Assembly: GCF_900109295.1 (NCBI RefSeq)
Contig: NZ_FOIZ01000002.1
Location: 496,001-560,000, forward strand
DNA from: Cognatiyoonia koreensis
Lineage (GTDB): Bacteria; Pseudomonadota; Alphaproteobacteria; Rhodobacterales; Rhodobacteraceae
DNA: 64,000 nt
Direction of reading: 5' to 3'
The notes beneath the pieces were generated by a model that was given only the letters and a program-made list of their open reading frames with translations, ran no database searches and was not told the origin of the DNA. Positions 14,826 to 62,279 of this stretch are shown one piece after another. Position numbers and translations under genes: made by a program. The stretch's first letter is position 1, and each line of letters starts with the position of its first letter.

Positions 14826-14849
14826 GACGCGCGTGGGTGGGATCCCCGC

Positions 14850-15515
14850 TTAGAAGTCAAGATCGGCATAGTGGGCAGGTTGCGGAAAACCGGGGACCTG
14901 ATCGGCCAGAAGGGAACGGAACGCTGGGCGGGATTTGATCTTGGCATACCAGTCTTTCACGACCTCGTGGCGGTTCCAGTCAACGTCGGAAATATAGTCC
15001 AGACATGACAACTGTGCCGCTGCCGCGAAATCGGCGAGCGTCATGTCGTTGCCGGCAAGCCAGCGCCGCTGGTCCAGAAGGTGGGCCATGTAATCAAGGT
15101 GGTACTTGACCGCGCGGGATCCTGCCTTGACGTTCGTGCTGTCGGGATAGCCGGTGCCCATCACTTTGCGGAACACGCGTTCACCCAACAGCTTGGCGGT
15201 GACTTCCTTGTAGAATTTGTCATCGAACCACGCAACGATCCGCCGCGCTTCGTACCGGCCTTCCGCGCCGTTTGGAAGAAGCGGCGGGGTCGGATGGCTA
15301 TCTTCGAGATATTCACAAATGGCCGTACTATCGGCCATTGTACGGTTGCCCATTTTCAGGACTGGCACCTTGCCAGCAGGGTTGCGGCGCAGGAAATCGG
15401 CATCCTGTTCCCAATACCGTTCCTCGACCAGTTCGACTTCGATTTTCTTCTCTGCCATGGACAGGCGCACTTTGCGCGAAAACGGAGACAGCGGGTAATG
15501 GTAAAGTCGGTTCAT
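14850..15515 (-). CDS. Glutathione S-transferase family protein
   Basis: A 221-residue GST-fold protein. The thioredoxin-like N-terminal domain has YHYPLSPFSRKVRLSMAEK with a Ser-Pro-Phe-Ser active-site region, GKVPVLKMG (cis-Pro) and MADSTAICEYLEDSHP (the glutathione-binding Asp-Ser). An all-helical C-terminal domain contains MTLADFAAAAQLSCLDYI, the N-capping box. It probably conjugates or isomerises with glutathione; the substrate is unknown. It begins 53 bp after the end of mtgA and ends 24 bp before queG begins. Confidence 0.88.
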   Translation of the reverse strand: MNRLYHYPLSPFSRKVRLSMAEKKIEVELVEERYWEQDADFLRRNPAGKVPVLKMGNRTMADSTAICEYLEDSHPTPPLLPNGAEGRYEARRIVAWFDDKFYKEVTAKLLGERVFRKVMGTGYPDSTNVKAGSRAVKYHLDYMAHLLDQRRWLAGNDMTLADFAAAAQLSCLDYISDVDWNRHEVVKDWYAKIKSRPAFRSLLADQVPGFPQPAHYADLDF

Positions 15516-15568
15516 GGGGGCAACTCACGTTGTGGCTGCATCTTCAATGCCGCATCCCGCGCGTGCGT

Positions 15569-16294
15569 TCAACCTTCGAAGCAGTCCGCCCGTCCATCGG
15601 CAAGGATCGTTGCGGCCCCATCCATGATACTGGCCGCGCGGCGTCGCTGGGTGGGTGTCGGATTTGACGCACTGCGGGTCTTGGGCGATGGCAAAACCAT
15701 CGCAAGCCGCGCCGCCTGACGTGGTGTCAGATCGGCAGCATCGACACCGAAATAATGTCGCGCCGCGGCCTGCACGCCGAACACGCCTTCATCGAATTCG
15801 GCGACGTTCAGATAAACCTCCAGCACGCGGCGTTTTGACCAGACAGCCTCGACCAGCGGGGTCCAGATGGCCTCTATTGCTTTGCGCATGTAAGATCGGC
15901 CATGCCAGAGATAGACGTTCTTGACGGTTTGCTGCGATATCGTCGATGCGCCACGATTGCTGCCTTCGTCGATTGCGGTCTGAATGGCGTCCACGTCCAG
16001 TCCCCAATGCAGACAGAAATTCGCATCCTCGGCGGCTACGGCGGATCGGGCCATCACGGGCGCGATATTTTCGAGCGCGACCCATTCCTGAGTGACACCA
16101 CCCAGTCGGCGGCTTTCGCTGGCCATGTAGATATTTGTAGGCGGGTTCACCACGGTGAACAAAAGCGTCACCAGCACGACGAATGCAAAGACCCCGAACA
16201 GGCCACGCCAGAGCAGGCGACGCAACCGTGCCAATAGGCTCGGTTTGGGCGGTGCTTTCTTGCGTGTTGTCTTTTTGGTCTTGGGTTTTGCCAT
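15569..16294 (-). CDS. mtgA: Monofunctional biosynthetic peptidoglycan transglycosylase
   Basis: A 241-residue GT51 enzyme anchored by one N-terminal helix (about 31-49) after a Lys-rich tail. The catalytic Glu89 is in AAEDANFCLHWGLD, and GASTISQQTVKNVYLW (115-130) is the second donor-site motif. It polymerises lipid II glycan strands in the periplasm and lacks a transpeptidase domain, as expected of MtgA. It stands 81 bp downstream of gltB, separated by the gltB terminator, so it likely has its own promoter. Confidence 0.93.
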   Translation of the reverse strand: MAKPKTKKTTRKKAPPKPSLLARLRRLLWRGLFGVFAFVVLVTLLFTVVNPPTNIYMASESRRLGGVTQEWVALENIAPVMARSAVAAEDANFCLHWGLDVDAIQTAIDEGSNRGASTISQQTVKNVYLWHGRSYMRKAIEAIWTPLVEAVWSKRRVLEVYLNVAEFDEGVFGVQAAARHYFGVDAADLTPRQAARLAMVLPSPKTRSASNPTPTQRRRAASIMDGAATILADGRADCFEG

Positions 16295-35797: not shown

Positions 35798-37552
35798 ATG
35801 AGAAACAGGAAGGTCTTCGACGGCCAACGCGGGTTAGTCCTCGCAATATTCATAACCAGCATGTTCGTGAACATCCTGATTCTAACGGCACCCCTCTATA
35901 TGCTCCAGCTATTCTCGAAGGTGATGACCTCGGGAAGTCTGACAACTCTCGCTGCTCTCACGATTGGGGCAGCGATTGCACTTTTCTTCTACTTTACGTT
36001 TGACTGGCTGCGCCAACGGTTGGCCTCCCGGCTTGGGGCCCGCCTTGAAGTTGCCCATGGCCCGACAGTGATGTCAGGTCTGGTCGATGACCGCGAACTG
36101 TTCGATGCCGTTGGCAACCAGCCTGTGCGGGATCTTCAGGAGCTGCGCGGTTTCGTGACCAGCCCTTATTTCACGGCCCTTCTCGATGCACCGTGGTCCA
36201 TCATGTTTGTGGCGGTCATTTTTATGTTCCATCCGCTTTTGGGCTTTGTGGCGCTGGCTGGCATCCTGACCTTGCTGGCACTGGCAATCATGAACGAGCT
36301 GACCAGCCGCAACGTGAACAAACAAGGATCGGCAACAGCACAGAAAGCCAACCGCACGGCGGATGAGGTGTTTCGCAACGCCGACGTTGCTCGATCGATG
36401 GGCAAGACCCCTGCCCTGATCAAACGCTGGCGCGCAGAAGCCCTGAACGCCGTCGACTACGCCAATACAGCCAACAACCGGATTTCGTTCAGCACCTCCA
36501 TCGCCAAGTTCGTACGCATGGGTCTGCAAATCGCAATCATGGGCACAGGCGTTATTCTGGTGTTGCGCAACGAATTGTCGCCCGGCCTGATGCTGGCCGC
36601 CTCGATCCTGTTGGGTCGCGCAGCAGCCCCGGTCGAGCAGGCGATTTCCGGGTGGAGCGCATTCCTGCAAGTCCGCCAGTCCGTGCAACGGCTGAATTTC
36701 CTGTTTGCCCGCCGCGCCGCAACCAAAGACCTGATGGAACTGCCAGCGCCCGAAGGTTACCTGGCTGTTGAGGATGCGACCGTGATTGTGCCGGAACACC
36801 AGCAACCGCTTGTCTTTGGCGTTGATTTCCAGCTCAAGCCGGGCATGTCGCTGGGCCTGATCGGTCCCAGTGGTGCCGGCAAGACGACGCTGGCCCGCGC
36901 GATTGTCGGGTTACAACCTTTGACCCGCGGCTTCATTCGCATCGACGATTCCGCGCTGACCGACTGGCCTGTTGAACAGATTGGCCAGTACATCGGCTTT
37001 TTACCACAGCGGGTCGAACTGTTCGCTGGCACCATCGCTGAAAATATTGCGACGATGGACCCCGACGCAGCCCCGTCCCTGATTGTTGAGGCAGCGAAAA
37101 CCGCGCAAGTCCACGACCTGATCCTGAGTATGCCAAAGGGATATAACACTGACGTCGGCCAGATGGGTGAACGCCTGTCTGCCGGACAGCGTCAGCGGAT
37201 CGGTCTGGCCCGCGCCTTTTATGGCGATCGCAAACTGATTGTGCTGGATGAACCTAACGCGAACCTTGATCCCGATGGCGAACAGGCGCTGGCCCGTGCA
37301 ATCGGTACGGCGACAAGTCGCGGTGCAGTTGTCGTGATCGTAACCCACCGTCACAACATTTTGCGCCAACTGACGCATGCCGGTATGATGCAAGGTGGGC
37401 GTTTGGTGAAATTTGGTCCGTCCAAAGACGTTCTCAACGCGGCAACCACACCAATTGCCGAAGCAGCAAAAGCCGATGGGTCAAATGTCACCATGTTCCG
37501 GCGGCATTCGGGTGCGCAAACACAAGCAAAAGTAGTGGGAGAAAGCTCATGA
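35798..37552 (+). CDS. Type I secretion ABC transporter (permease/ATPase)
   Basis: A 584-residue PrtD/HlyB-type exporter. The N-terminal half has membrane helices (around 20-60, 140-180 and 250-300) and no C39 peptidase domain. The ATPase has Walker A GPSGAGKTT, signature LSAGQRQRIGLARAF and Walker B LIVLDEPNANLD. Proteins of this type export RTX proteins in one step with an HlyD adaptor and a TolC-like channel. It overlaps the adaptor gene by 4 bp and follows the RTX gene after a terminator and a 174-bp gap, so it is almost certainly that protein's exporter. Confidence 0.93.
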   Translation: MRNRKVFDGQRGLVLAIFITSMFVNILILTAPLYMLQLFSKVMTSGSLTTLAALTIGAAIALFFYFTFDWLRQRLASRLGARLEVAHGPTVMSGLVDDRELFDAVGNQPVRDLQELRGFVTSPYFTALLDAPWSIMFVAVIFMFHPLLGFVALAGILTLLALAIMNELTSRNVNKQGSATAQKANRTADEVFRNADVARSMGKTPALIKRWRAEALNAVDYANTANNRISFSTSIAKFVRMGLQIAIMGTGVILVLRNELSPGLMLAASILLGRAAAPVEQAISGWSAFLQVRQSVQRLNFLFARRAATKDLMELPAPEGYLAVEDATVIVPEHQQPLVFGVDFQLKPGMSLGLIGPSGAGKTTLARAIVGLQPLTRGFIRIDDSALTDWPVEQIGQYIGFLPQRVELFAGTIAENIATMDPDAAPSLIVEAAKTAQVHDLILSMPKGYNTDVGQMGERLSAGQRQRIGLARAFYGDRKLIVLDEPNANLDPDGEQALARAIGTATSRGAVVVIVTHRHNILRQLTHAGMMQGGRLVKFGPSKDVLNAATTPIAEAAKADGSNVTMFRRHSGAQTQAKVVGESS

Positions 37553-38925
37553 CACGCGCTGTAGCACCCCAAGCCAAGGCAACGGATGTCGGTTTTTCAG
37601 ACACGATGCCCAAGAAAACGAACATGCCGGAACCAAAACTCGGAATCAGCGGACTCGTGTTTACAATGCTGATCCTGATCGTTGCCCTTGTCGGTGGGAT
37701 TGGCACCTGGGCCGTCACAGTTCCGATGCGAAGTGCGGTTGTTGCATCAGGAAAATTCGAAGTGCTGGGCGACCGATTGATCGTGCAGCATATGGATGGC
37801 GGCATCGTTAACGAAATTAACGTCAAGGATGGCGATATCGTTGCTGCGGGTGACGTAATTGCCAAGTTGGACTCGACCCGATCAACGGCGTCCCTTGGTA
37901 TCCTGAAAGGTCAACTTGCCAGTGCGCTTGCCGAAGGGGCAAGGCTGGAGGCTGAGTTTACCTGGGCAGATACAATGACATTGCCCAACGCGTTGGAGCA
38001 GATGATTGAAGAAGAGCCGTTGCTTGCCAAGACGGTTGCACTTCAGAACGAAGTTCTGGCGGCCAATCTTGATAACGTCTCGGGTCAGATCCAGATTTTG
38101 GAGAACCGGATCGGACAGCTGCGCGGTCAGGACGAAGGCACAACGCGCCGCCTCGAAACACTTGAACAGCAGCTTGCGTTGGCGACAAGCGAGCTTGAAG
38201 GTCAGGAAAAGCTTTTTGATGAAGGGCTGATTACAAAGCAGCGCTATCTTGAAATGCTGCGCGATCAGACAGCGATCTTGGGTGAAATCCAAATCATCGA
38301 AAGCGAGCGCCAGACAACGCTGCAGCAAATCTCTGAACAGGAAGAGCGCATCTTGCAGGTTCGTCGTGACTGGATGACCCAGATCAGCGAACAACGCCAA
38401 GCAAATGAAGCCGAGGTGTTTGACCTTGAGCAACGTGTCTTTGCTATCGCAGATCAGCTGAAGCGCCACACAATTCTGGCCCCAGTCGATGGTCGGATTG
38501 TTGAATCAACGATCAATACGCTTGGCCAGGTCATCGAAGCTGGTCAGCGCCTTGTCGAAATTGTGCCAACAGATAGCGAGTTCGTCGTCGCTGTGAGCAT
38601 TCTACCGCAGGACATCAATGAGGTGCGTGAAGGCGGTGAAGCCAGAATTCGACTGACCGCTTACAATTTTCGCACCACGCCCACGATACTCGGGGACGTG
38701 ATCTATGTTGCCCCGGATGTGACCGTCAACAACGAAACTGGCGAGCAATTCTATCGTGCACATATCCGTGTGCATGAAGACGAGCTTGCCGCTTTGACAC
38801 AAGTCGAGGTCCAGCCAGGAATGCCCGCACAAGCCATGCTGACCACAGGTGAGCAGACTTTGGCGGACTATTTGCTTGCTCCGGTTATTGGTGGATTTGA
38901 AACCGCGCTGGTTGAAGCAGAATAG
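37549..38925 (+). CDS. HlyD-family type I secretion adaptor
   Basis: A 458-residue membrane fusion protein. One N-terminal transmembrane helix (about 35-57) is followed by a lipoyl-like half (VQHMDGGIVNEINVKDGDIV), a long coiled coil (about 115-300, rich in Leu/Gln/Glu) and the second lipoyl half (HTILAPVDGRIVESTINTLGQVIEAGQ). The C-terminal beta-barrel ends with VQPGMPAQAMLTTGEQT. It would link the inner-membrane ABC protein to an outer-membrane channel. No TolC homologue is in the window, so the channel must be encoded elsewhere. Confidence 0.93.
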   Translation: MTRAVAPQAKATDVGFSDTMPKKTNMPEPKLGISGLVFTMLILIVALVGGIGTWAVTVPMRSAVVASGKFEVLGDRLIVQHMDGGIVNEINVKDGDIVAAGDVIAKLDSTRSTASLGILKGQLASALAEGARLEAEFTWADTMTLPNALEQMIEEEPLLAKTVALQNEVLAANLDNVSGQIQILENRIGQLRGQDEGTTRRLETLEQQLALATSELEGQEKLFDEGLITKQRYLEMLRDQTAILGEIQIIESERQTTLQQISEQEERILQVRRDWMTQISEQRQANEAEVFDLEQRVFAIADQLKRHTILAPVDGRIVESTINTLGQVIEAGQRLVEIVPTDSEFVVAVSILPQDINEVREGGEARIRLTAYNFRTTPTILGDVIYVAPDVTVNNETGEQFYRAHIRVHEDELAALTQVEVQPGMPAQAMLTTGEQTLADYLLAPVIGGFETALVEAE

Positions 38926-42541: not shown

Positions 42542-43471
42542 ATGACCACACCGCACGGACCACATTTCCTCGGAATTGGCGCTCAACGCGCCGGAACGAC
42601 GTGGGTACATCAAATGCTGTTCGGAAACCCAAGTGTGTGGTTACCACCGATCAAGGAATTGCATCATTTCGATTTATTCGACCAATCCGGCAATCTGATC
42701 AGTGATCGATTGCACGACCATCGTGCATCACGCATACGCGCTTGGGCGAAGCAACCGTGGCACAAAGAAATGCGCAATCCGTTCAGGCCAGAGGGGCGGG
42801 AGCGGTTCGCGGACGTCTGGGCGATGGCCCGGTACGAACTTACGACAGTATTAAGCAAACCAACTGTCACCAACTATCTGAAGCTGTTCGAGAATGCTCG
42901 GAGACGCGGACGGATCGCGGGTGAAATCACACCTGCCTATGCAACGCTGAAACCTCATCAGGTTGCCGAAATCAAGGACGCGGTTGGACCCGACTTGAAA
43001 GTTTTCTTCATCTTACGCGATCCGATTGACCGTATGTGGTCGCATGCAACCAAACATTTCGTGCGGACAAGAGGCAAACGCCCCGGCGAAGTCGATCACG
43101 CAGACTACCTCGCGTTCGTGAAAAGCGTACCGTGCCAGATCAGGACGGATTATGCGACGACGCTTGCCACGTGGCGAAGCGTATTTGGAGATGCAAACGT
43201 CCTGACCTGCTATTTTGACGATATTCGAGACGCACCTCAGGATCTGCTTGATCAGATCGAAACGTTTCTTGGTGTACCCAGCGACAGGCGACGACCGCTG
43301 CTGCCAGCCAACAATTCCTACCGCAACAAGGACGACGGTATTCCCCCAATGCTGCGCCCATGGCTTTCCCATTTCAGCATGCAACAATGTATGGCGTTAG
43401 CAGAACGTGATCCGCATCCGCATATAATGCGGTGGATGGAACGCGCCAAAGAGATGGCGCAGAATGTTTGA
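42542..43471 (+). CDS. Sulfotransferase 1 (PAPS-dependent)
   Basis: A 309-residue cytoplasmic sulfotransferase. The 5'-phosphosulfate loop is GIGAQRAGTTWVHQML (about 10-25), and the 3'-phosphate site is FILRDPIDRMWSHATKHF (about 158-175) with the conserved Arg-Asp-Pro and downstream Ser. The C-terminal PANNSYRNKDDGIPP resembles heparan sulfate/NodH-like carbohydrate enzymes. It probably sulfates a sugar of the EPS unit before flipping. It starts 2 bp after the flippase stop and overlaps the second sulfotransferase by 8 bp. Confidence 0.9.
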   Translation: MTTPHGPHFLGIGAQRAGTTWVHQMLFGNPSVWLPPIKELHHFDLFDQSGNLISDRLHDHRASRIRAWAKQPWHKEMRNPFRPEGRERFADVWAMARYELTTVLSKPTVTNYLKLFENARRRGRIAGEITPAYATLKPHQVAEIKDAVGPDLKVFFILRDPIDRMWSHATKHFVRTRGKRPGEVDHADYLAFVKSVPCQIRTDYATTLATWRSVFGDANVLTCYFDDIRDAPQDLLDQIETFLGVPSDRRRPLLPANNSYRNKDDGIPPMLRPWLSHFSMQQCMALAERDPHPHIMRWMERAKEMAQNV

Positions 43472-44471
43472 TTATTGCTTCATATCCTACATCAGCCGAT
43501 CAGGGTCTACGCTGCTCGCGCATCTGCTAAGCGATCGATTTCAGGTCTGCGTCACACCAGAAGGGTCGTTTCCAGCAGAAATGCTTGGTGTTAACGGCTT
43601 TGCACCAGTTGAACTTAAAACCGCAGCCAGCGCGGCAAGTTATCTTGATGCACTTACAAGCGTGTCAAAACTCGCGTCTTGGAATATCGAACCAACGATC
43701 ACGAACTCATTGCCGGTAGATGGCGTTACGATCTTTCAGGGCTTGCTTCGTCAATACCGCGACACCTTTTTCCCCAGTGACCAAATGATCTGCTACAAGG
43801 GCGATCCAGTCATGCCATGGGAGATCACCAAGGCCCTGTCGTACCACCGATCGGCGGGCGCGATCGTTATTCTGCGTGATCCAAGGGCCATTCTACATTC
43901 ACAGTTGAACGCAGCGTATGCATACCGTGGCGGGAAGTTCAGCCATGCCGTTGCGCAAAACGCACGCGAATGGGCTCAAATGGTATCAGCCATTGAAGCG
44001 CTGGCCGACGATCCCCGAGTTCATGTTGTGCGATATGAAGAACTGGTGACTGACACGGACGCTGCACTTGCCAAGTTGGCGGCATTTCTAGAAGTGCGAT
44101 GCCGCGATAAGGCGCAGGAAAGGGGCTTTGCTGACACAATCGCTGATGAAGAGCGGCACTTGCATGTGCGCGCAACCGAAGCTCCTGACGCATCCCGATT
44201 GGACGCATGGCGCACGACGCTTGATCCGCGCAAGCAGGCATTGCTGGAACAGTTGATCGGAGAACAGATGCGACGCCATGGGTATCAACCTGACGCACCT
44301 ATTTCAATTAGCCGCCTTTCTGTTTGGGGGTCCGTCGCACTGGACTATTTCGCGAAACTGACGCAGGCAGCACGCCGTCACGGAAAAACATCTGTAACTA
44401 ATCCGCACTATTTTTTACAAAAGGTAACAGCACGTTTGAAGCCGCGACAAAGTGGGGACGCGGATGGTTGA
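43464..44471 (+). CDS. Sulfotransferase 2
   Basis: A 335-residue sulfotransferase-fold protein, only distantly similar to its neighbours. The phosphosulfate loop is ISYISRSGSTLLAHLLSD (7-24), and the 3'-phosphate motif is VILRDPRAILHSQLNAAY. It has a central VHVVRYEELVTD segment typical of Stf0-like enzymes. Substrate unknown, presumably a different position or sugar from that of the first enzyme. Overlaps of 8 bp on both sides place it in one transcript with the other two sulfotransferases. Confidence 0.88.
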   Translation: MFDYCFISYISRSGSTLLAHLLSDRFQVCVTPEGSFPAEMLGVNGFAPVELKTAASAASYLDALTSVSKLASWNIEPTITNSLPVDGVTIFQGLLRQYRDTFFPSDQMICYKGDPVMPWEITKALSYHRSAGAIVILRDPRAILHSQLNAAYAYRGGKFSHAVAQNAREWAQMVSAIEALADDPRVHVVRYEELVTDTDAALAKLAAFLEVRCRDKAQERGFADTIADEERHLHVRATEAPDASRLDAWRTTLDPRKQALLEQLIGEQMRRHGYQPDAPISISRLSVWGSVALDYFAKLTQAARRHGKTSVTNPHYFLQKVTARLKPRQSGDADG

Positions 44472-45306
44472 CTATACGTTAGTCTACATTGGCCCAATCG
44501 GATTTAGCGGTTCGACTTTGCTGGATGTCGCCTTGGCCCAAGGCGATGATGTATTTAGTATGGGCGAGGTCTTTCAGATCGCTGAGTGGATGCGCGAAAA
44601 CCACCTTTGCACCTGTCGCAAACCTATTGGCGAATGCGCCTTCTGGCCAGGTGTCTTGAAAGACATCACGCCAAACGCGTTGGCGACACCGGCAGGCATC
44701 GGGCGTGAGGATTTAAGAGCACGTACCATCTCAACAGATGAAGAAACATCGCGATACGTCGCAGCGCATTGGGATCTCATAGATAGGGTCGCCGAAGCTT
44801 CTGGTGCTCGATTGATTATTGATGGGTCAAAGCATCTTTGGCGATTGAAGCTTTTGGCCGATGCGAGGCCGGACAAGATCAAGTTCATCCAGCTTTGTCG
44901 CGATCCTTTGGCCGTGATGCAATCAGCGAAGATACCAAAGGCGCGATTAGCTGTTTCGAGCACTGCGATGACCAAACCAAGTTCTGGCTTGCGAACGCTT
45001 ACAAAGTGGATTTTGTCGCATCGTGCAGCTCGCCAGTTTGCTGATCAAAATAGGATTCCACGATTATCTGTGTCGTACGACAGGCTGACACACGAGCCAG
45101 AAAAGTCCTTATCGGCAATTTGTGACTGGATCGGCATGTCCTACGATCCTGCAATGTTAACGCTCAAAACCCCGGACCTTCACAATATTGCTGGAAGTCG
45201 GTGGCGACTGACCAAGGATCAATCCACGATCTCTCCCGCGTCAGATACGGGTCGGAACAGCTTGATTTCTAAGACTGCGACGGCTCTGGCGGGTCTTTCT
45301 CGATGA
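44464..45306 (+). CDS. Sulfotransferase 3
   Basis: A 280-residue sulfotransferase. The loop IGPIGFSGSTLLDVALAQ (10-27) binds the phosphosulfate, and LCRDPLAVMQSAK supplies the 3'-phosphate site. A Cys-rich segment, HLCTCRKPIGECAFW (about 50-64), is typical of this subgroup and may bind metal or form a disulfide. ATG 44464 overlaps the preceding gene by 8 bp; the GTG at 44452 is a less likely start. Overlap with the following GT2 gene is 4 bp. Confidence 0.87.
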   Translation: MVDYTLVYIGPIGFSGSTLLDVALAQGDDVFSMGEVFQIAEWMRENHLCTCRKPIGECAFWPGVLKDITPNALATPAGIGREDLRARTISTDEETSRYVAAHWDLIDRVAEASGARLIIDGSKHLWRLKLLADARPDKIKFIQLCRDPLAVMQSAKIPKARLAVSSTAMTKPSSGLRTLTKWILSHRAARQFADQNRIPRLSVSYDRLTHEPEKSLSAICDWIGMSYDPAMLTLKTPDLHNIAGSRWRLTKDQSTISPASDTGRNSLISKTATALAGLSR

Positions 45307-46182: not shown

Positions 46183-47454
46183 GTGATCATTCGGCAATCG
46201 CATATGATGATGGCGCTCACGTTCTCGATCGCGTTCAGCCAAGTCGTTGAAATGCAGGTCAGCATCGGCGGCCCTACCGTCTCTCTTGACGAACTGCCAC
46301 TGCTCGCCTGCGCTGGCATCCTTTTGCTGTCCGGAAAGATCGGGCGGGTGTCGGGACTACTGCTTGCTTTCGGGTTAATCGAATTGGGAGTCCGGTCGAT
46401 CTACCCGCTCGTAAACGGGCAAATAGTGCCTCTGATCTCGGAAGTAATTAAGCTCGTCATTCTGTTGGCTGTTTACGGGACCTTGGCGAATAATGCCAAA
46501 GACGATGTGGATAGTTCGTTTGCCCTGTTAGCGCGATACTGGGTAATTCTCGCTGTCATCAGTGCGGGTGTCATTCTGCTTCAGTCTGCAGATCTGTTGC
46601 CAAAGCAAGCGCTGGTCCAAGGATCCATCAAGACATTCCCACGGCCCACAGGTATCCAGAACGACCCGAATTTTGCCGCGAACTCACTTGCCTTAGCGGT
46701 CTTGTTTCTCAAAATGTTGCGATTGAGACCGCTTTATCAGAACGGGTTGATCGGTCTGATGCTGATAGCAATATTCCTGACCGAGTCACGTATGGGGCTA
46801 GTTCTTGCGGTCTTTATTCTGACGTACTGGTGGTTGATCAGTTGGCGAATATCGAGCCTCAAAGCTGTACGATCGCGAGTCCTTGGCACGCTTTGCATTA
46901 TCGCGGTGGTTGCCGTCGGGTCATTCACTCTCGCCCAAAGCGATCGCAACTTCAGGGTATTTGAACGCTTCTCATCAATAGTTGCAACGCTTGAGGCAAC
47001 GACACTCCTTAGCCTCGAACGCACCCGCGGGCTGCAACGGGAATCCGCTCAGGAACGTCTCATCCTTGCGTATGCAGGATACCGGGTCTGGCGAGACAAC
47101 AAATTAATTGGCGTTGGTCAGGATAGGATCGCGCAGGAATTGCGGATTACCGCCGGCATCGAAAAATCGACGCATAACGGATACATCGACCGAATGATGA
47201 TTGGCGGTGTGTTTGGAATTTTGTTCGTGGGATTCGTGGCCTATCTGCTGCTTTTGTCGACCCGCCTCCGCTTACGGCAGTCGAAAAATCACACCATCTT
47301 AGGCGTGAAAGTACTGCTTCCAACCGTATGTATTGCGTCAATGCTGTTGAACGTATCGTTCTGGCCGGTACTTACGATGCTCGCAGCGTGTCTTGCGTCA
47401 CAGAATGTCAGCTTGCGTATCAGGCGATCGGCACCAGCCGCTCAATTGGTGTAG
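46183..47454 (+). CDS. wzy: O-antigen ligase / Wzy-like EPS polymerase
   Basis: A 423-residue membrane protein with about ten predicted helices and a large periplasmic loop (about 270-330) holding FSSIVATLEATT and GVGQDRIAQELR, then STHNGYIDRMMIGG, a pattern of the Wzy/WaaL family (His in the H-N-x-Y region). It would polymerise EPS repeat units in the periplasm. The start is GTG 46183, 1 bp after the GT2 stop; ATG 46204 is an alternative. Its 3' end overlaps wzc tail-to-tail by 13 bp. Confidence 0.85.
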   Translation: MIIRQSHMMMALTFSIAFSQVVEMQVSIGGPTVSLDELPLLACAGILLLSGKIGRVSGLLLAFGLIELGVRSIYPLVNGQIVPLISEVIKLVILLAVYGTLANNAKDDVDSSFALLARYWVILAVISAGVILLQSADLLPKQALVQGSIKTFPRPTGIQNDPNFAANSLALAVLFLKMLRLRPLYQNGLIGLMLIAIFLTESRMGLVLAVFILTYWWLISWRISSLKAVRSRVLGTLCIIAVVAVGSFTLAQSDRNFRVFERFSSIVATLEATTLLSLERTRGLQRESAQERLILAYAGYRVWRDNKLIGVGQDRIAQELRITAGIEKSTHNGYIDRMMIGGVFGILFVGFVAYLLLLSTRLRLRQSKNHTILGVKVLLPTVCIASMLLNVSFWPVLTMLAACLASQNVSLRIRRSAPAAQLV

Positions 47455-49592
47455 TACTTCGTTCCGTAAGCGGAGTAGCTTCCGTACTTACCGCCATATC
47501 CATAGCGCTTCATACCCTTTTCGCTAATCTGGCTGAGAACCAGACCGGTAATGCGCTGATTTGAGTTATGAAAGAGTCGCATAGCCTCTTCGACCAGCTG
47601 CCGATTTGTGCTGTCCCATTTGACAGAAAACAGGATTGCGTCAGCAACTTGTGAAATGATCCTCGCATCAGGCACAACCAAAACGGGCGGAGTATCTATG
47701 ATGATTACATCGTATTTCGCCCTCATCTCTTGTATCAGGGCTTTGAATTTATCAGACGAGAACAAGTCGGCAGCGTTGAGTGAGGATTTGTCGCCGGCGA
47801 GCACGTCAGCACCGAAACTTTCAGGGCGATAAACCGCTTCTTCAAGCGTGATGTCCCCGGCAAGAACAGAAACGATACCTTTCTTGGGCATATCCTGAAA
47901 ATACTCGTTCAATGTTCGTCGACGGATGTCGCCTTCTACAAGAAGTACAGATTTGCCAAGCCCGAGGAGGTTTTGCGCGAGGGCAAGCGAATTGGTCGTC
48001 TTTCCTTCACCCGGGATGGAAGAGGTCGAGACAATGATTTTCGGTGGATTGTCGACGTTTGACAGCATGACAGACGTGCGAAGGTTTCGCACGGCTTCTG
48101 CAGCCGCAGAGGTGGGTTTTTCCGCAAGATACGTCAGCACCTTGATGCGACGGCGAGCCGGAATAAGCGGAATTTGCCCCATCACGGTATAGCCTGTGAA
48201 CGCTTCCAGATCACGCGCTGTGCGGAAACTGTTGTTGCGCGCCTCGCGGTAGAGAACCCAAGCCGCCCCAACCAATAGCCCGAGGATTGTCGATAGTACT
48301 AGGATCAGTGGCTTGCGTGGTTCGGCTGGAGCATTTGGGATGATGGCGTGAGAAAGGATGCGGCTGTCTGCTTGCTGAATACCTTGCTGTGCAGAAGTTT
48401 CCTTCAGCCGGGTTAGGAAGTACTCGTAAAGCAAACGGCTTGCCTCAGCCTCGCGGGTAAGCTGCTGAAGCTTGATAAGGTCTTCACCTTGTCGCTCTAA
48501 CTGCGCATCGAGTTCCATCTCTGATGCAAGCAACGCGGCAAGTTGCTGATCCGCCCTTAGGAGTTCCAACCGAGCACGATCAACGACAAGACCGAAACGA
48601 GTATCGAATGCAGTCCGAATTGCATCGTCGGACTCGGCCCTTTGCGCGAATCTGGAAAGCTGCGTGTCATTCGCAATTCGAACCTTGTCGTCAACAGTTA
48701 CGGCGTTTTCGAGGCTGGTCAATCGTGCCTGAGCCGTGACGCGCGCTGCTTCGGCGGATCCGATCCGATCACGCAGCTCCTTTATCTGGCGCTCTAATCC
48801 CTGCAACCCTTCGATCGACACAAGGTCGGTAGATGCACTGAAGTCCTTGACCGCCGCCTCCGCCTCTTCAAGTTCAAGCTGAAGCTCGGAGACCCTGTTG
48901 CTAAGCCAGGTCGTGGCCTGTTCGGTTGCTTCGAATTTCACTTCGATCTGGTTGAGGATATAGAGTTCGACAATCGTATCGGCGATCAGGGCTGATTTTT
49001 CGGCAGACTCCGTTTCGACCGTAATCTGGAACACGAGGCTGAGCGGCACGTTCCGAATTGTAACCTTGTCGAGAAGGCGGGTCACCACGCCATCGCGTTT
49101 GCGTACCACAGCCTGCTCTGCGGGAAGAATGACACGCTGCTCGGGCAGTCCGATCAATTCGCGAACATATGTTTCTGCACGTTCGAACACGGTTTCAGGC
49201 TGAAGCGCCTTGTTGAATTCCGGGTCGTTCACCAAATCCAGACGATCGACGACCTTTCCCATAAGATCGCGGGCACGCAGTACCTCGACCTCGGAATTAA
49301 CTTCCGTCGTATCACCGGAGATTCCGCCTACTACACTTTGCAGATCGACGATCTGATCCTGATTGGTTTCGAGGATGACAACTGTTGTGGCGCGATACAG
49401 CGGCGTGGCAAGTGAAAATACGTAATATGCAGCAATGGAGATCGCGATGATTGTGACAAACGCGATCGTCCACTTGCCCCGCCAAAGCGCAGCAAGCAAT
49501 TCGCCAAGGTCAAGAATTTCCGTGTCGGATTTTTCGGAACCAGTTGCGTTTGCCCCTGCAATGGGCTGCTTGCTCGTTATGCTGTCTGACAT
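47442..49592 (-). CDS. wzc: Polysaccharide co-polymerase / tyrosine autokinase, Wzc family
   Basis: A 716-residue protein with a Wzz-type chain-length domain and a BY-kinase domain. Two transmembrane helices (about 40-60 and 430-450) bracket a long periplasmic coiled coil. The kinase has Walker A IPGEGKTTNSLALAQ, Walker A' VLLVEGDIRR and Walker B YDVIIIDTPPVL. The C-terminus is a Tyr cluster (YGYGGKYGSYSAYGTKYY) for autophosphorylation. It controls EPS chain length with wza and wzy. No cognate phosphatase (Wzb) is present in the window. ATG 49592 lacks a strong ribosome site. Confidence 0.94.
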   Translation of the reverse strand: MSDSITSKQPIAGANATGSEKSDTEILDLGELLAALWRGKWTIAFVTIIAISIAAYYVFSLATPLYRATTVVILETNQDQIVDLQSVVGGISGDTTEVNSEVEVLRARDLMGKVVDRLDLVNDPEFNKALQPETVFERAETYVRELIGLPEQRVILPAEQAVVRKRDGVVTRLLDKVTIRNVPLSLVFQITVETESAEKSALIADTIVELYILNQIEVKFEATEQATTWLSNRVSELQLELEEAEAAVKDFSASTDLVSIEGLQGLERQIKELRDRIGSAEAARVTAQARLTSLENAVTVDDKVRIANDTQLSRFAQRAESDDAIRTAFDTRFGLVVDRARLELLRADQQLAALLASEMELDAQLERQGEDLIKLQQLTREAEASRLLYEYFLTRLKETSAQQGIQQADSRILSHAIIPNAPAEPRKPLILVLSTILGLLVGAAWVLYREARNNSFRTARDLEAFTGYTVMGQIPLIPARRRIKVLTYLAEKPTSAAAEAVRNLRTSVMLSNVDNPPKIIVSTSSIPGEGKTTNSLALAQNLLGLGKSVLLVEGDIRRRTLNEYFQDMPKKGIVSVLAGDITLEEAVYRPESFGADVLAGDKSSLNAADLFSSDKFKALIQEMRAKYDVIIIDTPPVLVVPDARIISQVADAILFSVKWDSTNRQLVEEAMRLFHNSNQRITGLVLSQISEKGMKRYGYGGKYGSYSAYGTKYYTN

Positions 49593-49671
49593 CACAATAG
49601 GATTTGCACTGCTCGTCTTGTACGGGACTGCACATCTCTAGCGCAGACAGCACAGCTTTGACAGCGGCTAA

Positions 49672-50358
49672 TTATCGTCCGGTCCGACCAAAGATCGCGC
49701 TGGCGGTCTTTATGATAAGGAGACAATCCAGACGAAACGAAATCTGGTGACTGTAAAGAATGTCGAACCGTACGCGCTCATCATAGCTTGTGTCGTTGCG
49801 TCCAGATGTCTGCCAAAGGCCGGTTATGCCGGGCGTCAGTGACAGGTACGTCGCTTTTCCATGCCGGTACCGGAGCAGTTCATCCGCGATAACAGGCCGC
49901 GGTCCGACAAAGCTCATCTCTCCTTTGAGGACATTCCAAATTTGTGGAAGTTCATCCAAGCTGGTTGAGCGTAGAATGCGGCCGAAACGCGTGACGCGCG
50001 GGTCGGTTGTAAGTTTCTGCGAACTCGCCCATTCAGCTGCAGCTTCGGGATTGTCCTTTAGATAAGTCGTCAGCTTCTCTTCTGCATTGGCAACCATCGA
50101 GCGGATCTTCCAGCATTGAAAGCGCACACCGTTCTTGCCGATGCGTTCATGACCATAAAAGCCAACACCGCCATCCCGAACGGTCAACACCCAAAGCATG
50201 AAAATCACAGGAATAAGAAATGGTAGCAGGAGTATCGCAAACACGATGTCGAACGCCCGTTTACCGAAAGCCGTGTAGAAACCATCACCCTGCCCTGCAG
50301 CTTGCGCGACATAGAATTCGCCAGTTGCGGACAAGGAATCGCTGTTCTCGTGTTTCAA
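49672..50358 (-). CDS. EPS priming sugar-phosphate transferase (ExoY/WbaP type)
   Basis: A 228-residue initiating glycosyltransferase that loads the first sugar-phosphate onto undecaprenyl phosphate. One membrane helix (about 35-60) follows FGKRAFDIVFAILLL. The catalytic domain has WKIRSMVANAEEKL, TRFGRILRSTSLDELPQIWNVLKGEMSFVGPRP (key ones RSTSLDELPQ, GPRP) and SLTPGITGLWQTSGRND. The start is inferred as TTG 50358, preceded by a G-run; the frame extends to 50391. It is upstream of wzc on the minus strand and probably co-transcribed with it. Confidence 0.88.
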   Translation of the reverse strand: MKHENSDSLSATGEFYVAQAAGQGDGFYTAFGKRAFDIVFAILLLPFLIPVIFMLWVLTVRDGGVGFYGHERIGKNGVRFQCWKIRSMVANAEEKLTTYLKDNPEAAAEWASSQKLTTDPRVTRFGRILRSTSLDELPQIWNVLKGEMSFVGPRPVIADELLRYRHGKATYLSLTPGITGLWQTSGRNDTSYDERVRFDILYSHQISFRLDCLLIIKTASAIFGRTGR

Positions 50359-50804
50359 ATTAACCCCCCCGGGAACCAAGACCCTTAACAATCAAAATCT
50401 CACAAAGTACTTTTTGGAACGTAAATTCTTACTCAGTCGATAAATTTCATTTAACACACTTACAATTAGCAGATTTCTTTCGAATCAGAAATGGCAAGAT
50501 GATGCCTCATAAAGGGGTTTTTTGTGCCTATTTAGTGGTCGTTATCCAAGAAAAGTCTACTTTTGTAACAATCAGCAAAGCCTAGACATATGATTCGTCC
50601 GAATCACCCGCAAGAAGTGCGAGTCTCGGCCCCTCGGTCGGGCACTGGTAATGTGCAGCCTCTGTAGCTTTCTGATGTGCATGTCCTTTCGGGATAATCT
50701 GTCGTTGTCGAGAGGAATATTGGCCCATTGCTCCATGCAATCGATCCTTGGCCATCAATCGATTGAAAAATACAGGCAGCCAGGAAACCCGCCTGTGCAG
50801 GTCG
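50359..50804. other. 446-bp spacer between the sulfatase operon and the priming transferase
   Basis: AT-rich sequence with no coding character. It should hold the 3' end of the sulfatase transcript and the promoter of the priming-transferase gene, both read on the minus strand. The palindrome CAATCGATTG is at about 50757-50766, with a second CAATCGAT about 20 bp before it. TTGTAA followed after 17 bp by TATCGA on the minus strand (around 50435-50465) is a possible promoter. No clear terminator is seen. Confidence 0.45.
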
Positions 50805-53042
50805 TCAGGTGTCGATCACGACAGAAGCTTCAAGATCGGATATCGTGATCTTTGCTGCTGAATTCACCATAACGGATCGACCCTTGTGCCACATCAGGAT
50901 CGAATGATCCGTAATCTGGCGGTACTCTGGCGTAGCATTCCATGCGGTCAGATTGATTTCTTCACCGATCTCCCAATCCGTGATCTGGCAGGAACCGGCA
51001 CGTCCGATGATGAACGTGTCCTTGCCCTGTCCCCCGCTCATGATGTCATCGCCTAGGGATATCAGCGTATCCTTGCCCTGACCACCGAACATTGTATCGC
51101 GCCCCGGACCGCCGATGATCAAGTCATCCCCCATGCCCCCATCAAGATAGTCGTCACCAGACCCGCCATCCAGCGTGTCCGCGTTTTCGCCGCCATAAAG
51201 CTGGTCGTCACCGGTGCCGCCATACGCAGACGACTCACCGATGATGATGCTGAGATGATCGTCCCCGGCTCCACCATAGATGCCCGCGCCCGAGCGTGCG
51301 GTCAGCGTGTCGTTACCGTCATCACCATATCCGACGGCCTCGGGGCCGCTGACGTGAACTTCGTCATCGCCATGCCCACCGTAAAGCGTCGATTTGTTCG
51401 GACCCGTCATGATATCGTTGCCACCATAGCCATAGCCAACGTAAGACCGCTGCGGTCCGTCCACGCGGTTATCAAGATTGTTAAGGTGGATTTCCGGCAT
51501 CGTCGGCGCACGCTTGACGGCAAGGAACAGGTTTTCGATCCCGTCTGGAAGCGTATAAGTCGTATCGCCCTGCCAGCCGCCCAGATAGATCGTGTCGTTA
51601 CCGCCATCGTCCTTGATTTCGACGTCGGCACCTTCCCACAGAAAATAGGAATCGTCGCCCGTGCCGCCATGCACGCTTGCGCCGGCCTGCAGTGCATATT
51701 GCAGCGCCTCGGCAATCGGCGGCAGCACGTCGGACGTGTGGAAAAGCCCGTTGCGCGCGCTTTCGACCACCAGTCGGTTGCGCATGTCTGCAATCAATTC
51801 CGCCTCGTCGATCAGGTTCTTTGACTGCTGCGGATCGGCCACGACGTTGTAAATTTCTTCGTCGCCATTGGGATAGAGAATATAGCGGTAATCCCCGGCA
51901 CGAATACCAGTCGCGCCATAGACTGACGACAAGGCCCCGCGTTTTTCGTATTCGCCGGGCTGGTCAGGCAACAAGGGGCGCAGGGATTGCGATTGAATGC
52001 GTGCCGGAATGTCTTCGCCAATCAGATCAAGACATGTTGGAAAAATGTCCATCAGGGTGACGGGTTCGTCGACTTCGCTGCCTTTGGTCTGACCGGGCAT
52101 CTTCACGATCAGCGGTGTACGCGCCGCTTCTTCCCAAAGCGTGAACTTGCCCCAAACATCGTGATCACCGACGTGGTAACCGTGATCTGACACAACAACG
52201 ACAGCTGTATCCTTGTCCTTGCCGCTGGCTTCCAGCGCGTCCAGAAAACGGCCGATGTGATGATCGACATGGGTGATGCAGGCCAGATAGGCACGCACGT
52301 GGTGCTGCCACGCCTCGAAATCTTTGCCAGGCCAGACGGTGCCGTCGCCCATGAACTGTTCCGCATAGGTGGTCGGCCGCGGCAAATCACCAAGCGCCCA
52401 GCTGGTCGGTTCTTCTATCAGCGTGCGGTCATAGCGTTCGTAACACCACTTGGGCGCGATGTAGCGGGTATGAGGATGCTGGAACCCCAACATGACCGTC
52501 CAAGGTTTATCTTCGGGTAGACGCTCCAGCGCGTCGATCCCATATTGCGCCACGCGATAGTCATAAAAGTCTTTATCATGTCCTTCGATCCCCTCGATCC
52601 CGAGAGGCGATTCAAAATAGACCTCGCGATCTTCCGGCGCGGCCTGCGTCGGAAAGAAAAGCCCCCGCGGCATGACTTCGTGGTGCATTTGCCGCTGCTG
52701 ATGAACGGGCTGCGGGTAATAGCCGTGCATGATCTTGCCCGCATGGACAACGTAATGCCCTGCCCGTTTGATGACGGATGACAGGTTATCTCGCGTCGGG
52801 ATGAACTGATACCATTCCTGCCCATGGTTGGAATGGACACCGGATTCAAACGGGCTCCAGCCTGTCATTGCAGATGCACGCGACGGACCGCAAATAGGGA
52901 TAAAGGCGTAGGCTGCGTTGAATACCGTCGCGGTTTCGCAAAGCTTGTCGAGGTTCGGGGTTTGGATGGGCTGACCAAACGTATTCCTGAACAGGCGATA
53001 CGTGAACAGATCGTCAATGTAGATCAGTGCAAGATTAGACAC
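50805..53042 (-). CDS. Sulfatase with C-terminal RTX domain (iduronate-2-sulfatase-like)
   Basis: A 745-residue fusion. Residues 1 to about 440 form a type I sulfatase: metal ligands Asp10-Asp11 (IYIDDLF), the formylglycine motif CGPSR at 51-55 (Cys51 is the residue to be oxidised), Lys103 in HAGKIMHG, His189/His191 in FQHPHT, and Asp286-His287 in SDHGYHVGDH with Lys299 after it. The SDHG and GK-FTLWEEAARTPLIV pattern resembles iduronate-2-sulfatases. From about 480 to 680 RTX repeats follow, then a tail fitting a type I secretion signal. There is no signal peptide. GTG 53042 is chosen because it overlaps the upstream stop by 8 bp; the frame is open to 53108. Confidence 0.9.
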   Translation of the reverse strand: MSNLALIYIDDLFTYRLFRNTFGQPIQTPNLDKLCETATVFNAAYAFIPICGPSRASAMTGWSPFESGVHSNHGQEWYQFIPTRDNLSSVIKRAGHYVVHAGKIMHGYYPQPVHQQRQMHHEVMPRGLFFPTQAAPEDREVYFESPLGIEGIEGHDKDFYDYRVAQYGIDALERLPEDKPWTVMLGFQHPHTRYIAPKWCYERYDRTLIEEPTSWALGDLPRPTTYAEQFMGDGTVWPGKDFEAWQHHVRAYLACITHVDHHIGRFLDALEASGKDKDTAVVVVSDHGYHVGDHDVWGKFTLWEEAARTPLIVKMPGQTKGSEVDEPVTLMDIFPTCLDLIGEDIPARIQSQSLRPLLPDQPGEYEKRGALSSVYGATGIRAGDYRYILYPNGDEEIYNVVADPQQSKNLIDEAELIADMRNRLVVESARNGLFHTSDVLPPIAEALQYALQAGASVHGGTGDDSYFLWEGADVEIKDDGGNDTIYLGGWQGDTTYTLPDGIENLFLAVKRAPTMPEIHLNNLDNRVDGPQRSYVGYGYGGNDIMTGPNKSTLYGGHGDDEVHVSGPEAVGYGDDGNDTLTARSGAGIYGGAGDDHLSIIIGESSAYGGTGDDQLYGGENADTLDGGSGDDYLDGGMGDDLIIGGPGRDTMFGGQGKDTLISLGDDIMSGGQGKDTFIIGRAGSCQITDWEIGEEINLTAWNATPEYRQITDHSILMWHKGRSVMVNSAAKITISDLEASVVIDT

Positions 53043-53814
53043 GCGACGGACTTTCGACGTAGATCTCGGTAAAGTAGCGATCAAGCAATTCCAGCGCATC
53101 GCCTTCACTCAGAATGTCCGTGTCAAACGCCAACATTTCAAGAAAGTGGCCGCGCCAAGACCGTGGTGCAGAAGGTGTTGGCGCATCTGGTTTTTCTGCA
53201 ATCTGATCCGCAGCGAACACGACGCTGCAAGGTTGTTCGTGCGGATTCTCAAAAGCCACTTCGCCAATTTCGCCGGTCTTGGTCAAATCACGCACGCGAA
53301 ACCTGACTTTGCCGTCTGACGCAGATAGAATCGCAAGAAAAACGCCGGCGGCGTCCCATTCTGCCGGCCCTTCCAGAATATCCTGACCATTGTGCTTCAC
53401 GATGTAGCGATCGGCCTGACGTAACAGACGAACGCTCTTTTGCTTGCTGCAAATCGCGAACAAGGTCTGTGGTGAGTTAATCAGCGCTTCGAGATCGCAG
53501 ACAGCAGCAAGACTGAAACAAGAACCGTCAAGATTGGTGTCCACGCCAAGGTAGTCAAGAACATCGCGTTCATGAAAGGCTGCCGGAAAGCCCGCAGTTT
53601 CGGACAATTGCGGGCCCATGCTGAATTCCGGTGCCCGCAGCGCAAGGTTGCCTGCACGGGGGCGAATTTCAACGATACTCTCGTCCACGACCTCCAGATC
53701 GGGAGAGTCCACCGTGCACCATGTCAGGCACTGTCCAGTCGCGTTCATCTGGCCGCTGTAGTCCGTCAAGTTCAGCCCCAACCCCGGTGCCGGTCCGTCG
53801 ATCCTGATGGTCAT
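53035..53814 (-). CDS. LamG/concanavalin-like protein in sulfatase operon
   Basis: A 259-residue protein without a signal peptide. The region from about 85 to 255 reads like a LamG/concanavalin-A-like beta-sandwich: alternating hydrophobic strands, GSCFSLAAVCDLEA, and a final LEMLAFDTDILSEGDALELL helix-strand typical of LamG modules. This is pattern recognition, not a confirmed hit. ATG 53814 has AGGGGGC upstream and begins 9 bp after the end of the first operon gene. It may bind sugars in the same polysaccharide that the sulfatase attacks. Confidence 0.55.
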   Translation of the reverse strand: MTIRIDGPAPGLGLNLTDYSGQMNATGQCLTWCTVDSPDLEVVDESIVEIRPRAGNLALRAPEFSMGPQLSETAGFPAAFHERDVLDYLGVDTNLDGSCFSLAAVCDLEALINSPQTLFAICSKQKSVRLLRQADRYIVKHNGQDILEGPAEWDAAGVFLAILSASDGKVRFRVRDLTKTGEIGEVAFENPHEQPCSVVFAADQIAEKPDAPTPSAPRSWRGHFLEMLAFDTDILSEGDALELLDRYFTEIYVESPSRV

Positions 53815-53823
53815 GAACGCCCC

Positions 53824-55542
53824 CTAAATCCTGAATTCAAATGCAAACGCGTAGCGATGCAACGTCTTTCCGGTGACAGACCTCGCGGACCAGTCATCGC
53901 GCATATCACCACCACTGCAAAACAATGAACCGGACAGGTCAAAAGACGCCTCGATGTTGTCATAGGCATAGCGGATGCGACCGTTTTCCGGCACTCCGGT
54001 CAAGACAACCCGCAGGCGGGTCAGGTCTTCAGTGACGGGATCGGGTACAATTTCCCACCCTTCGATTTCAATATCGTTGTCGCTGATGAGCGATAGCCCG
54101 TGCGTCGGTGCAACCAATGCATGGCCTTTCATGACCTCAAAATCAATCGTGACCACATTGCCATCACGTTCGGCTAGAAACGCGAGCGGAGGCAGCCAAT
54201 CCTTCGTTGCCAAGCCGTCCAGCTCGGCAAGCATTGTCATGCTTTCGGGAGTGACCTGAACCAAACTACCCGCGCGGCGTTCACACCAATAGATCGGCGC
54301 AACAAGGACAACAGGCAGCGCGCCGCGTTCTACGAATGCTTTGGGTGTTTGCAGAACAGATGCGTAGTCAGCCCTGAACGCATCACCGACCGGCTGGTAC
54401 AGATTGATCTGGCGCGCGCCGAGGCTTTGCGCGATCTCACCACAAAGGGTCAAAAGGCGGGCAGCATAATCGGAACTGTCTTCGGTTGCGCCTTGCAGGA
54501 TGCTTACAGTTTGCACCGCCGGATGGCGACCGTAAGGTTCCAGTGCGCGACGAAACTGCGGAATGGTTTCGATCAAATTGCGCAGTCCAGCGCCTTGCGT
54601 CAGTTCGTTCAGTTCTGCACCCATGACCGTTTCGGCGCGTACGCCATGCCAGTGCTTGGGGCCGCGGCAATGGCGCAAATAAGTATCCGCCGCAGTAGAG
54701 GCAAAACCGCGACTGGGTCGCTGAATATCATCAGCGTCACGCAGCTTTTCTTCGCCATTCAGTCCCGCCTGACCGCCTTCATCGTTGAAGGTCAGGATAT
54801 GTGTGAAATGGTCGATCTCGACCGATGGCGACGTGTCGGTGAATTCATCTCCGAAGACAAGGCGCAGCAACACTTCGCGATGGGCATTTGCCCATGGATC
54901 ACCTGGACCATAGCGAAGGTATTCCCGCGCCGTCGGACCCCAGATATGCGCATTGAAATACAGCGTATCGCCGTCTTTCCGCACGTTCCATGCATCGAAA
55001 TCAGGAACCATCTCCGGTCCGACAGGACGGCCACCGGGAACATTGAACCGGGCGGCGATGTCCGCCAATGCGTCTTCGGACAACCGCAGATCAATGAGGC
55101 CAGACTGGTCGACGCCTGCGACAATTTCATCCCCAATGGATATTAGTGGTAACGCATCGCCGCGACCGAGCCGCACCGCATCGCGAGGTAATTCATGTTC
55201 AGGCAAGACGCGGGCCAAATCAGCTATCGTGCTGGGGTGAAGCCGCGCAACAAGTCGCCCAGATGCATCGATACTGACGACACTTTCGCCGCCCAATGTC
55301 ACGAGCGACGGTGTATCACCGCGTCGAAGTTTGGCCTCTGCACGCGTTTGATACCGTTCGGTAATCTCCTGCGATGACCAGTTTTCCCCAGCGCTGAGGC
55401 GCCAGTATAAACAGATGCGTTCCGCCCCAAGAAACACGACAAGTCCAACCGTATCCGGCATGTCGGCAAGCGCACCATCCACATCCGCGACGTCCGCCAG
55501 AATGCGGATATGAGGCGGGATGGAAGCGTCGGCCTTAGTCAT
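53824..55542 (-). CDS. Large protein of unknown function, first gene of sulfatase operon
   Basis: A 572-residue protein (ATG 55542; TTG 55572 is possible). No family is recognised. The N-terminal ~190 residues are beta-rich with repeated short motifs (LVTLGGESVVSIDASGRLVARL, LPLISIGDEIVAGVDQSGLIDLRL), suggesting two related repeats. The middle has THILTFNDEGGQAGLNG. The C-terminal ~280 residues have features seen in SGNH/sialate-esterase-like proteins: SILQGATEDSSDYAARLLTL and a final RIRYAYDN...GGDMRDDW pattern. A GDSL serine block is not visible, so this is weak. It has no signal peptide. A role with the sulfatase is inferred from the operon. Confidence 0.5.
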   Translation of the reverse strand: MTKADASIPPHIRILADVADVDGALADMPDTVGLVVFLGAERICLYWRLSAGENWSSQEITERYQTRAEAKLRRGDTPSLVTLGGESVVSIDASGRLVARLHPSTIADLARVLPEHELPRDAVRLGRGDALPLISIGDEIVAGVDQSGLIDLRLSEDALADIAARFNVPGGRPVGPEMVPDFDAWNVRKDGDTLYFNAHIWGPTAREYLRYGPGDPWANAHREVLLRLVFGDEFTDTSPSVEIDHFTHILTFNDEGGQAGLNGEEKLRDADDIQRPSRGFASTAADTYLRHCRGPKHWHGVRAETVMGAELNELTQGAGLRNLIETIPQFRRALEPYGRHPAVQTVSILQGATEDSSDYAARLLTLCGEIAQSLGARQINLYQPVGDAFRADYASVLQTPKAFVERGALPVVLVAPIYWCERRAGSLVQVTPESMTMLAELDGLATKDWLPPLAFLAERDGNVVTIDFEVMKGHALVAPTHGLSLISDNDIEIEGWEIVPDPVTEDLTRLRVVLTGVPENGRIRYAYDNIEASFDLSGSLFCSGGDMRDDWSARSVTGKTLHRYAFAFEFRI

Positions 55543-61925: not shown

Positions 61926-62279
61926 TCAGGAATGTGTCAGTCCGCGTTTTCTGTAAAAGGTCAAAGTGGGACCGTAATCCTCAAATCTTTCGACAATGAA
62001 GGATTTGTCTAACCGCTCTCGCCACGCCGCTTCGATCTCATCCGCAATGTCGTCATAGATCTCTTCTGGGTAGTCATTGAGCGAAGCTATATCATAAACA
62101 TGAAGATGATTTAGAAGCCGCTCAATTTCATGCGGTGGCAGGCCTTCTTTGAACCAGCGGTCTATGTTCCGATCATCAGTGATGTCTGCGTTCAAAAATA
62201 GTCCGCGGTACTCGCGGACACTGATATTTTTCGCCTTTTCGATATAAGTCTTGAAGACTTCGTCGAATGTCTCGGTCAT
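61926..62279 (-). CDS. Probable immunity protein of the RHS toxin
   Basis: A 117-residue acidic, mostly helical protein without signal peptide or membrane segment. No family is recognised. Its start overlaps the end of the RHS toxin gene by 4 bp (ATGA) on the same strand, the usual place for a polymorphic-toxin immunity gene, and an acidic, small, cytoplasmic protein fits that role. The assignment is from position and size, not from homology. Confidence 0.7.
   Translation of the reverse strand: MTETFDEVFKTYIEKAKNISVREYRGLFLNADITDDRNIDRWFKEGLPPHEIERLLNHLHVYDIASLNDYPEEIYDDIADEIEAAWRERLDKSFIVERFEDYGPTLTFYRKRGLTHS

Follow-up and report, generated by a model that had tools for sequence, protein, structure and literature searches.

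The window analysed here is a stretch of 64,000 nucleotides from Cognatiyoonia koreensis (Rhodobacteraceae; contig NZ_FOIZ01000002.1, positions 496,001 to 560,000 of the forward strand), and the subject of this study is a trio of genes within it, termed A, B and S, the last of which encodes a sulfatase with an RTX tail:

53824..55542, minus strand: gene A, 572 amino acids; ATG at 55542, with TTG at 55572 as a possible alternative start
53035..53814, minus strand: gene B, 259 amino acids
50805..53042, minus strand: gene S, 745 amino acids from a GTG start that shares 8 bp with B

The order on the minus strand is A-B-S, with a gap of 9 bp between A and B and an overlap of 8 bp between B and S, and the coordinates agree with the tight operon described in the first-pass annotation, which had been made from the DNA alone. 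Residues of S are numbered according to the 745-residue form; an open reading frame (ORF) of 767 residues begins farther upstream. A scan for promoters and terminators around the trio stayed near chance (3 vs. 3.3 and 8 vs. 5.9). Neither A nor B matches any Pfam or NCBIfam family, even at an E-value of 1. With regard to signal peptides, which had been stated to be lacking in all three proteins, none is evident by a crude hydropathy test, in which a strongly hydrophobic N-terminus was absent from A, B and S; maxima within the first 60 residues were 1.92 (A), 0.59 (B) and 1.69 (S) as compared with 2.27 and 2.47 in two presumed signal-bearing proteins from a related locus (L042), a separation that is weak for A and S.

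S comprises an S1-type sulfatase domain at about residues 4–450 (Pfam Sulfatase PF00884, E 1.9e-41, 142.8 bits vs. a curated cut-off of 25), after which come RTX repeats and a tail some 65 amino acids long. The complete Cys-type site recognised earlier is indeed present and consists of Asp10-Asp11, Cys51 within CGPSR (51–55), GKIMHG, QHPHT, SDHG (285–288) and WGKF, all in agreement with the residues that we take to be required for metal binding and catalysis in S1 sulfatases, i.e., the Cys of CxPSR, DD, GK..H, HPH, SDHG and K. The RTX tail is likewise real: PF00353 matches with an E-value of 2.1e-15, and there are nine GGxGxD nonapeptides, which form the tandem GGxGxDxxx repeats near the C-terminus that mark RTX substrates (eight lie within residues 555–678; 1000 shuffles of residues 451–745 gave a mean of 0.23 and a maximum of 3 such nonapeptides). 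Among phage sequences, PHROG 19870 (unknown function) matches S at 1.3e-48, and a search of INPHARED with S returned 25 phage records, most of them from human faeces, in which the matches fall on the sulfatase part with 21–29% identity (best 20 of 25) and none covers 80% of S.

For A, an SGNH-esterase-like fold with a C-terminal beta domain is predicted, which resembles a phage tailspike subunit. The earlier description of B as LamG-like finds no echo in Pfam but is borne out by its predicted LamG/concanavalin-like fold, for which a second chain of that tailspike entry, from the cyanophage Pan3, is the best structural match. On these models, and without support from sequence, A and B appear to resemble the two subunits of a phage tailspike as a pair. 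A lacks the Ser and His of the esterase triad, with GDE in place of GDS/GQS and no DxxH (motifs placed against Pan3 by eye). GDS or GQS occurs at that site in none of 11 aligned rows (the window, the prophage locus L020 described below and P0002–P0010); nine have GDE and L020 has GDH. Sequence searches of the PDB gave no match for A at an E-value of 1 and three for B at 0.19–0.31, and Pfam yielded nothing useful on 19 A-like proteins and Laminin_G_3 in three of 16 B-like proteins (best E 0.013).

The three-gene order, the recurrence of which had been proposed as a check, is found in relatives and so is not confined to this strain; a strain-specific accident is thereby ruled out. Among 5.8 billion proteins searched at an E-value of 0.001, A matched nine besides itself, B four and S 782 (120 listed), with full-length relatives reaching 69% identity for A, 62% for B and 86% for S. 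Of 394 genomes of the family, 26 were positive for A-like genes in profile searches, as were 36 of 390 genomes of the order, the genome studied here being included in both; 13 A-positive genomes are shared between the samples, and all matches in the order sample lie within the same family. Of 48 other loci, 44 have an RTX sulfatase after A, three of the four misses being due to contig ends (L049, L052, L055) and one being real (L080); a B-like gene was recognised in 35 of the 48. As some of the loci behind the profiles for B-like proteins and for A of the polysaccharide clade came from the first sample (26/394), the independent part of this survey is the second sample, in which S was present in 22 and B in 19 of 23 loci. 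Comparison of profiles between the window families and those of the relatives gave a probability of 99.9% (E 1.6e-37) for A and of 88.5% (E 2.7e-6) for B. Three plasmids carry the cassette, two with all three genes and that of Thioclava FTW29 with A and S only; a plasmid search with A returned one record, Aliiroseovarius M344, and a search of GTDB contigs with A one locus. Locus L045 contains three further ORFs matching the S profile (1330–7050 and 14357–16036; 142–265 bits, RTX and sulfatase parts not separated). A recurring protein of 310 amino acids, annotated as phosphoadenosine phosphosulfate reductase and without Pfam match, is encoded near A-S beside a gene for a formylglycine-generating enzyme (FGE) in L044 (4742–7619) and L069 (6358–8658); it has homologues above 40 bits in 16 of the 48 trio loci, and the A ORF of L069 itself matches it.

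A phage setting is provided by a prophage of Paracoccus aminovorans HPD-2 (L020), in which A-B-S are flanked on one side by genes for baseplate, tail and tail-fibre proteins and on the other by those for a sheath, a tube-like protein and a tape measure, the tube-like gene being called head closure by PHROGs. The prophage A has an extra N-terminal part, and window A aligns to its residues 112–647 only. A similar architecture is seen in P0009, a protein of 934 amino acids whose residues 475–934 are the only stretch that aligns to window A (42% identity over 475 amino acids) and whose N-terminal part matches 13 records from Rhizobium/Sinorhizobium phages, four annotated as tail or tail fibre and nine as concanavalin A-like. 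Such an N-terminal attachment part, as expected of a tailspike, is absent from window A. In IMG/VR the S profile matched only L041, which is the same phage as L020, and neither the A profile nor P0009 had a match; INPHARED held no match for A at an E-value of 0.01. Beside the trio in the window, reading of the flanks and Pfam searches revealed no phage genes and no tail-gene cluster of the kind present in L020. A location inside a prophage is ruled out, the flanks consisting of polysaccharide and antiporter genes.

Most relatives reside in a different setting. Of 13 polysaccharide query proteins, one or more had a homologue above 60 bits at 36 of the 48 trio loci (6–20 kb each) vs. one of 20 arbitrary 20-kb stretches from the same genomes. 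Six of these queries stem from locus L042, two of the six being without Pfam family, and L046 is matched by those two alone; with the L042 queries only, the control count is 0 of 20, the single control match (L109) being due to queries from the window. For 13 proteins of the L020 phage, no homologue was found in any of the 48 loci, other phage types being outside this test. In a tree of 59 of 140 S sequences and one outgroup, derived by a quick method and featuring long branches, window S belongs to a starred clade of 18 that contains the prophage sulfatase and is apart from a polysaccharide-cluster clade (15 rows) and from a clade including FGE-linked loci. The polysaccharide-cluster clade (L042 and most of L045–L100) has an altered S1 site, with CAPCR for CxPSR and GKxD where the window has GKIMH, and one function for all members is therefore not to be assumed.

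On the 3' side of S come first the genes for an initiating sugar transferase, a Wzz/tyrosine kinase and a protein of the Wzy_C family, and then glycosyltransferase-like genes; farther on lie three genes of the sulfotransferase family, two for a type I exporter that comes with an RTX protein of its own, and a Poly_export gene:

46183..50391, mixed strands: polysaccharide assembly genes adjoining the trio, i.e., Wzy_C-family polymerase/ligase (plus), Wzz/tyrosine kinase (minus) and initiating sugar transferase (minus)
42554..45306, plus strand: three genes of the sulfotransferase family, which probably supply the sulfate on which S would act
35798..38925, plus strand: PrtD-type ABC exporter and HlyD-type adaptor, both over cut-off, candidate exporter of S
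33320..35623, plus strand: separate RTX protein of 767 amino acids with 18 RTX stretches, inside the polysaccharide region and directly before the exporter pair

Upstream of A and divergent from it is an antiporter-like operon, named by eye as were the glycosyltransferase-like genes of the window. The trio is thus placed at the edge of an apparent sulfated-polysaccharide locus. Two PrtD-type exporters exceed the cut-off in the genome, the one 12 kb from S being that with its own RTX protein, and type I export, which the first-pass annotation had envisaged, is plausible for S only and not for A and B, which lack RTX repeats. At the end of the window, an RHS core protein fragment (62276–63991, minus strand) is followed by a small ORF (61926–62279, minus strand) that might be its immunity gene, which is a guess.

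Tailspike-like subunits, a sulfatase, closely packed genes and a polysaccharide setting are together consistent with a complex that attaches to a sulfated surface polymer and removes its sulfate. We propose, with a probability of about 0.5, that the trio encodes a tailspike-type complex that targets polysaccharide, a relative of phage tail-fibre tips that is here kept outside any phage. What had been regarded as a secretion or surface unit of unknown type would thus become a tailspike-related, polysaccharide-desulfating cassette of a phage and of bacterial polysaccharide loci. A as a pseudo-esterase scaffold and B with its lectin fold would grip the polymer, and S, in complex with both, would strip sulfate esters from it. 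The substrate would most likely be the sulfated surface polysaccharide of the neighbouring cluster or of close kin. S, the RTX part of which should fold in dependence on calcium, would exit by a type I exporter, and A and B may be carried along or set free by lysis. This proposal is based on the gene order and its conservation, the predicted folds, the intact S1 motif residues and the phage-tail and polysaccharide contexts of the relatives.

A number of observations weigh against it. The models are modest (predicted local distance difference test, pLDDT, 61 for A and 67 for B), LamG and SGNH folds are common, and the link to Pan3 has no support from sequence, the hhalign probabilities being 1.6% for A and 0.3% for B. 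Only a single prophage with the complete trio was detected. All 36 loci with polysaccharide context rest on queries from the single trio locus L042, which lies among glycosyltransferases, and the polysaccharide genes of the window itself have no homologue above 60 bits at the 48 related loci; L043 (P. liaowanqingii, plasmid) lies by GH16 and sugar-uptake genes and L044 (plasmid) among amine and amino-acid genes. In the subset tree, moreover, the 48 relatives fall mostly into other S clades than the window, so that their context bears on the window only indirectly, and function may differ between S clades. Besides the window, the contexts or architectures visible in its own clade are those of phage only (L020, P0009). 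With regard to export, no homologue of the window exporter above 150 bits occurs in any of the 48 related loci (6–20 kb each), and A and B have no export route. Finally, the genome contains neither FGE nor anaerobic sulfatase-maturating enzyme (anSME), with no matches to PF03781, TIGR03942 or a Thioclava FGE protein at an E-value of 0.01. Oxidation of Cys51, which the first-pass annotation had named as a requirement for a type I-secreted sulfatase, is therefore unproven, and S may be poorly active.

The genome in question (3.65 Mb, 99.99% complete) encodes four PF00884 proteins, i.e., S, a choline sulfatase (TIGR03417, 892 bits, Cys motif present) and two others. Among the 26 A-positive genomes of the first sample (two less than 90% complete; this and the gene transfer agent count below do not extend to the 23 added later), 13 have an FGE match, eight of these below 1e-25, two others have an anSME over cut-off and 11 have neither enzyme; radical-SAM matches below cut-off occur in six A-positive genomes, four of them among the 11. 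FGE is a neighbouring gene in Thioclava FTW29 and G305, and the Paracoccus genome that harbours the prophage gave no more than a weak match to FGE (E 4.2e-7). A genome of the same genus without A-like match contains an FGE match (G249:C13:83307-84212, E 3.1e-57) whose reading frame includes a TAG. A missing FGE does not necessarily imply inactivity, since slow turnover is described for unmodified choline sulfatase in the available text of PMC6189696, which also states that the formylglycine-making machinery of Escherichia coli is unidentified.

It is rather unlikely that S is a plain RTX exoenzyme, secreted by the type I route and scavenging sulfate or carbon from algal or foreign sulfated glycans, with A and B as accessory binders and the likeness to phage tails reflecting a shared fold. 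Its RTX repeats, the PrtD-type exporter 12 kb away and the neighbours of the P. liaowanqingii trio would suit such a role, and a 2010 review had already included a predicted RTX sulfatase in its count (PMC3034196, available text); A and B without evident signals or RTX, the glycosyltransferase-type neighbours at 36 of 48 relatives and the same order in a prophage tail argue otherwise. A spike on a particle (phage, tailocin or host gene transfer agent, GTA), made in the cytoplasm, released by lysis and piercing the polysaccharide of kin cells, would account best for the missing signal peptides and would also explain cytoplasmic maturation. We nevertheless consider it unlikely: the 13 proteins of the L020 phage lack homologues at 48 of 48 loci within the stated scope, and window A is devoid of the N-terminal extensions present in L020 A and P0009. 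Apart from the phage contexts, this idea draws on the GTA tailspike TspA, which degrades biofilm (PMC13420450, available text), and on the GTA marker PF13547 in 22 of the 26 A-positive genomes, our genome included, a count made in A-positive genomes only that may be background. A decaying, functionless relic of a phage tail module in the chromosome is highly improbable in view of three open frames, conserved S motif residues and full-length relatives at the identities given above, even if all clade-mates whose context is visible or whose architecture is telling are phage and no FGE is at hand to activate S. That the trio edits or checks polysaccharide intermediates in the cytoplasm during synthesis is scarcely credible despite the adjoining biosynthesis genes and the lack of evident signal peptides, as RTX folds require millimolar calcium, which the cytoplasm lacks.

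Extending the proposal of a polysaccharide-targeting tailspike-type complex beyond this locus, we tentatively suggest that Rhodobacteraceae might retain domesticated tailspike complexes in surface-polysaccharide loci as self- or kin-directed editors, swap them with phages and in many species, including this one, activate the sulfatase without a known FGE. If true, phage tailspike tips and host polysaccharide-editing enzymes would form one exchangeable toolkit, which hints at how Rhodobacteraceae and their phages handle sulfated slime. With two Cys-type sulfatases and no FGE or anSME found, the organism would also be a compact system for hunting an unidentified formylglycine route, a gap stated for E. 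coli (PMC6189696, available text).

Among the literature results listed, no paper was found on an RTX sulfatase with tailspike partners, and comparison with known systems has to proceed by parts. The tailspike gp14-gp15 of the Pseudanabaena cyanophage Pan3 (PDB 9vyh, chains o and p) has the same gene order and fold pair as A-B, i.e., an SGNH-type spike and a lectin-fold partner, without detectable sequence similarity; unlike A, gp14 retains GQS and DFVH and has a longer N-terminus, which we take to serve virion binding, and no sulfatase is annotated after gp15. S shares CxPSR, DD, GK..H, H-P-H, SDHG and K with choline sulfatase (TIGR03417) and arylsulfatases but differs in its RTX C-terminus and two partner genes, and its 172 bits to TIGR03417 are far below the family cut-off of 433. 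We know of no phage link for the Rhizobium system of the exopolysaccharide glycanases PlyA and PlyB and the Rap lectins. According to the available text of PMC9298526 and PMC3034196, this PrsDE-dependent system likewise combines a polysaccharide-processing enzyme with a calcium lectin and type I export; on the other hand, the enzymes are glycanases, described as non-RTX and with Ra/CHDL domains, and the lectins are themselves exported. TspA resembles the trio in being made by Rhodobacterales, phage-derived, calcium-dependent and active on the biofilm matrix, and differs in its trimeric state, its beta-helix domain and its Glu/Asp site; neither sulfatase nor lectin nor SGNH is mentioned in the available text (PMC13420450). 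Set beside these systems, the cassette is a variation on known kinds and not a categorically new system.

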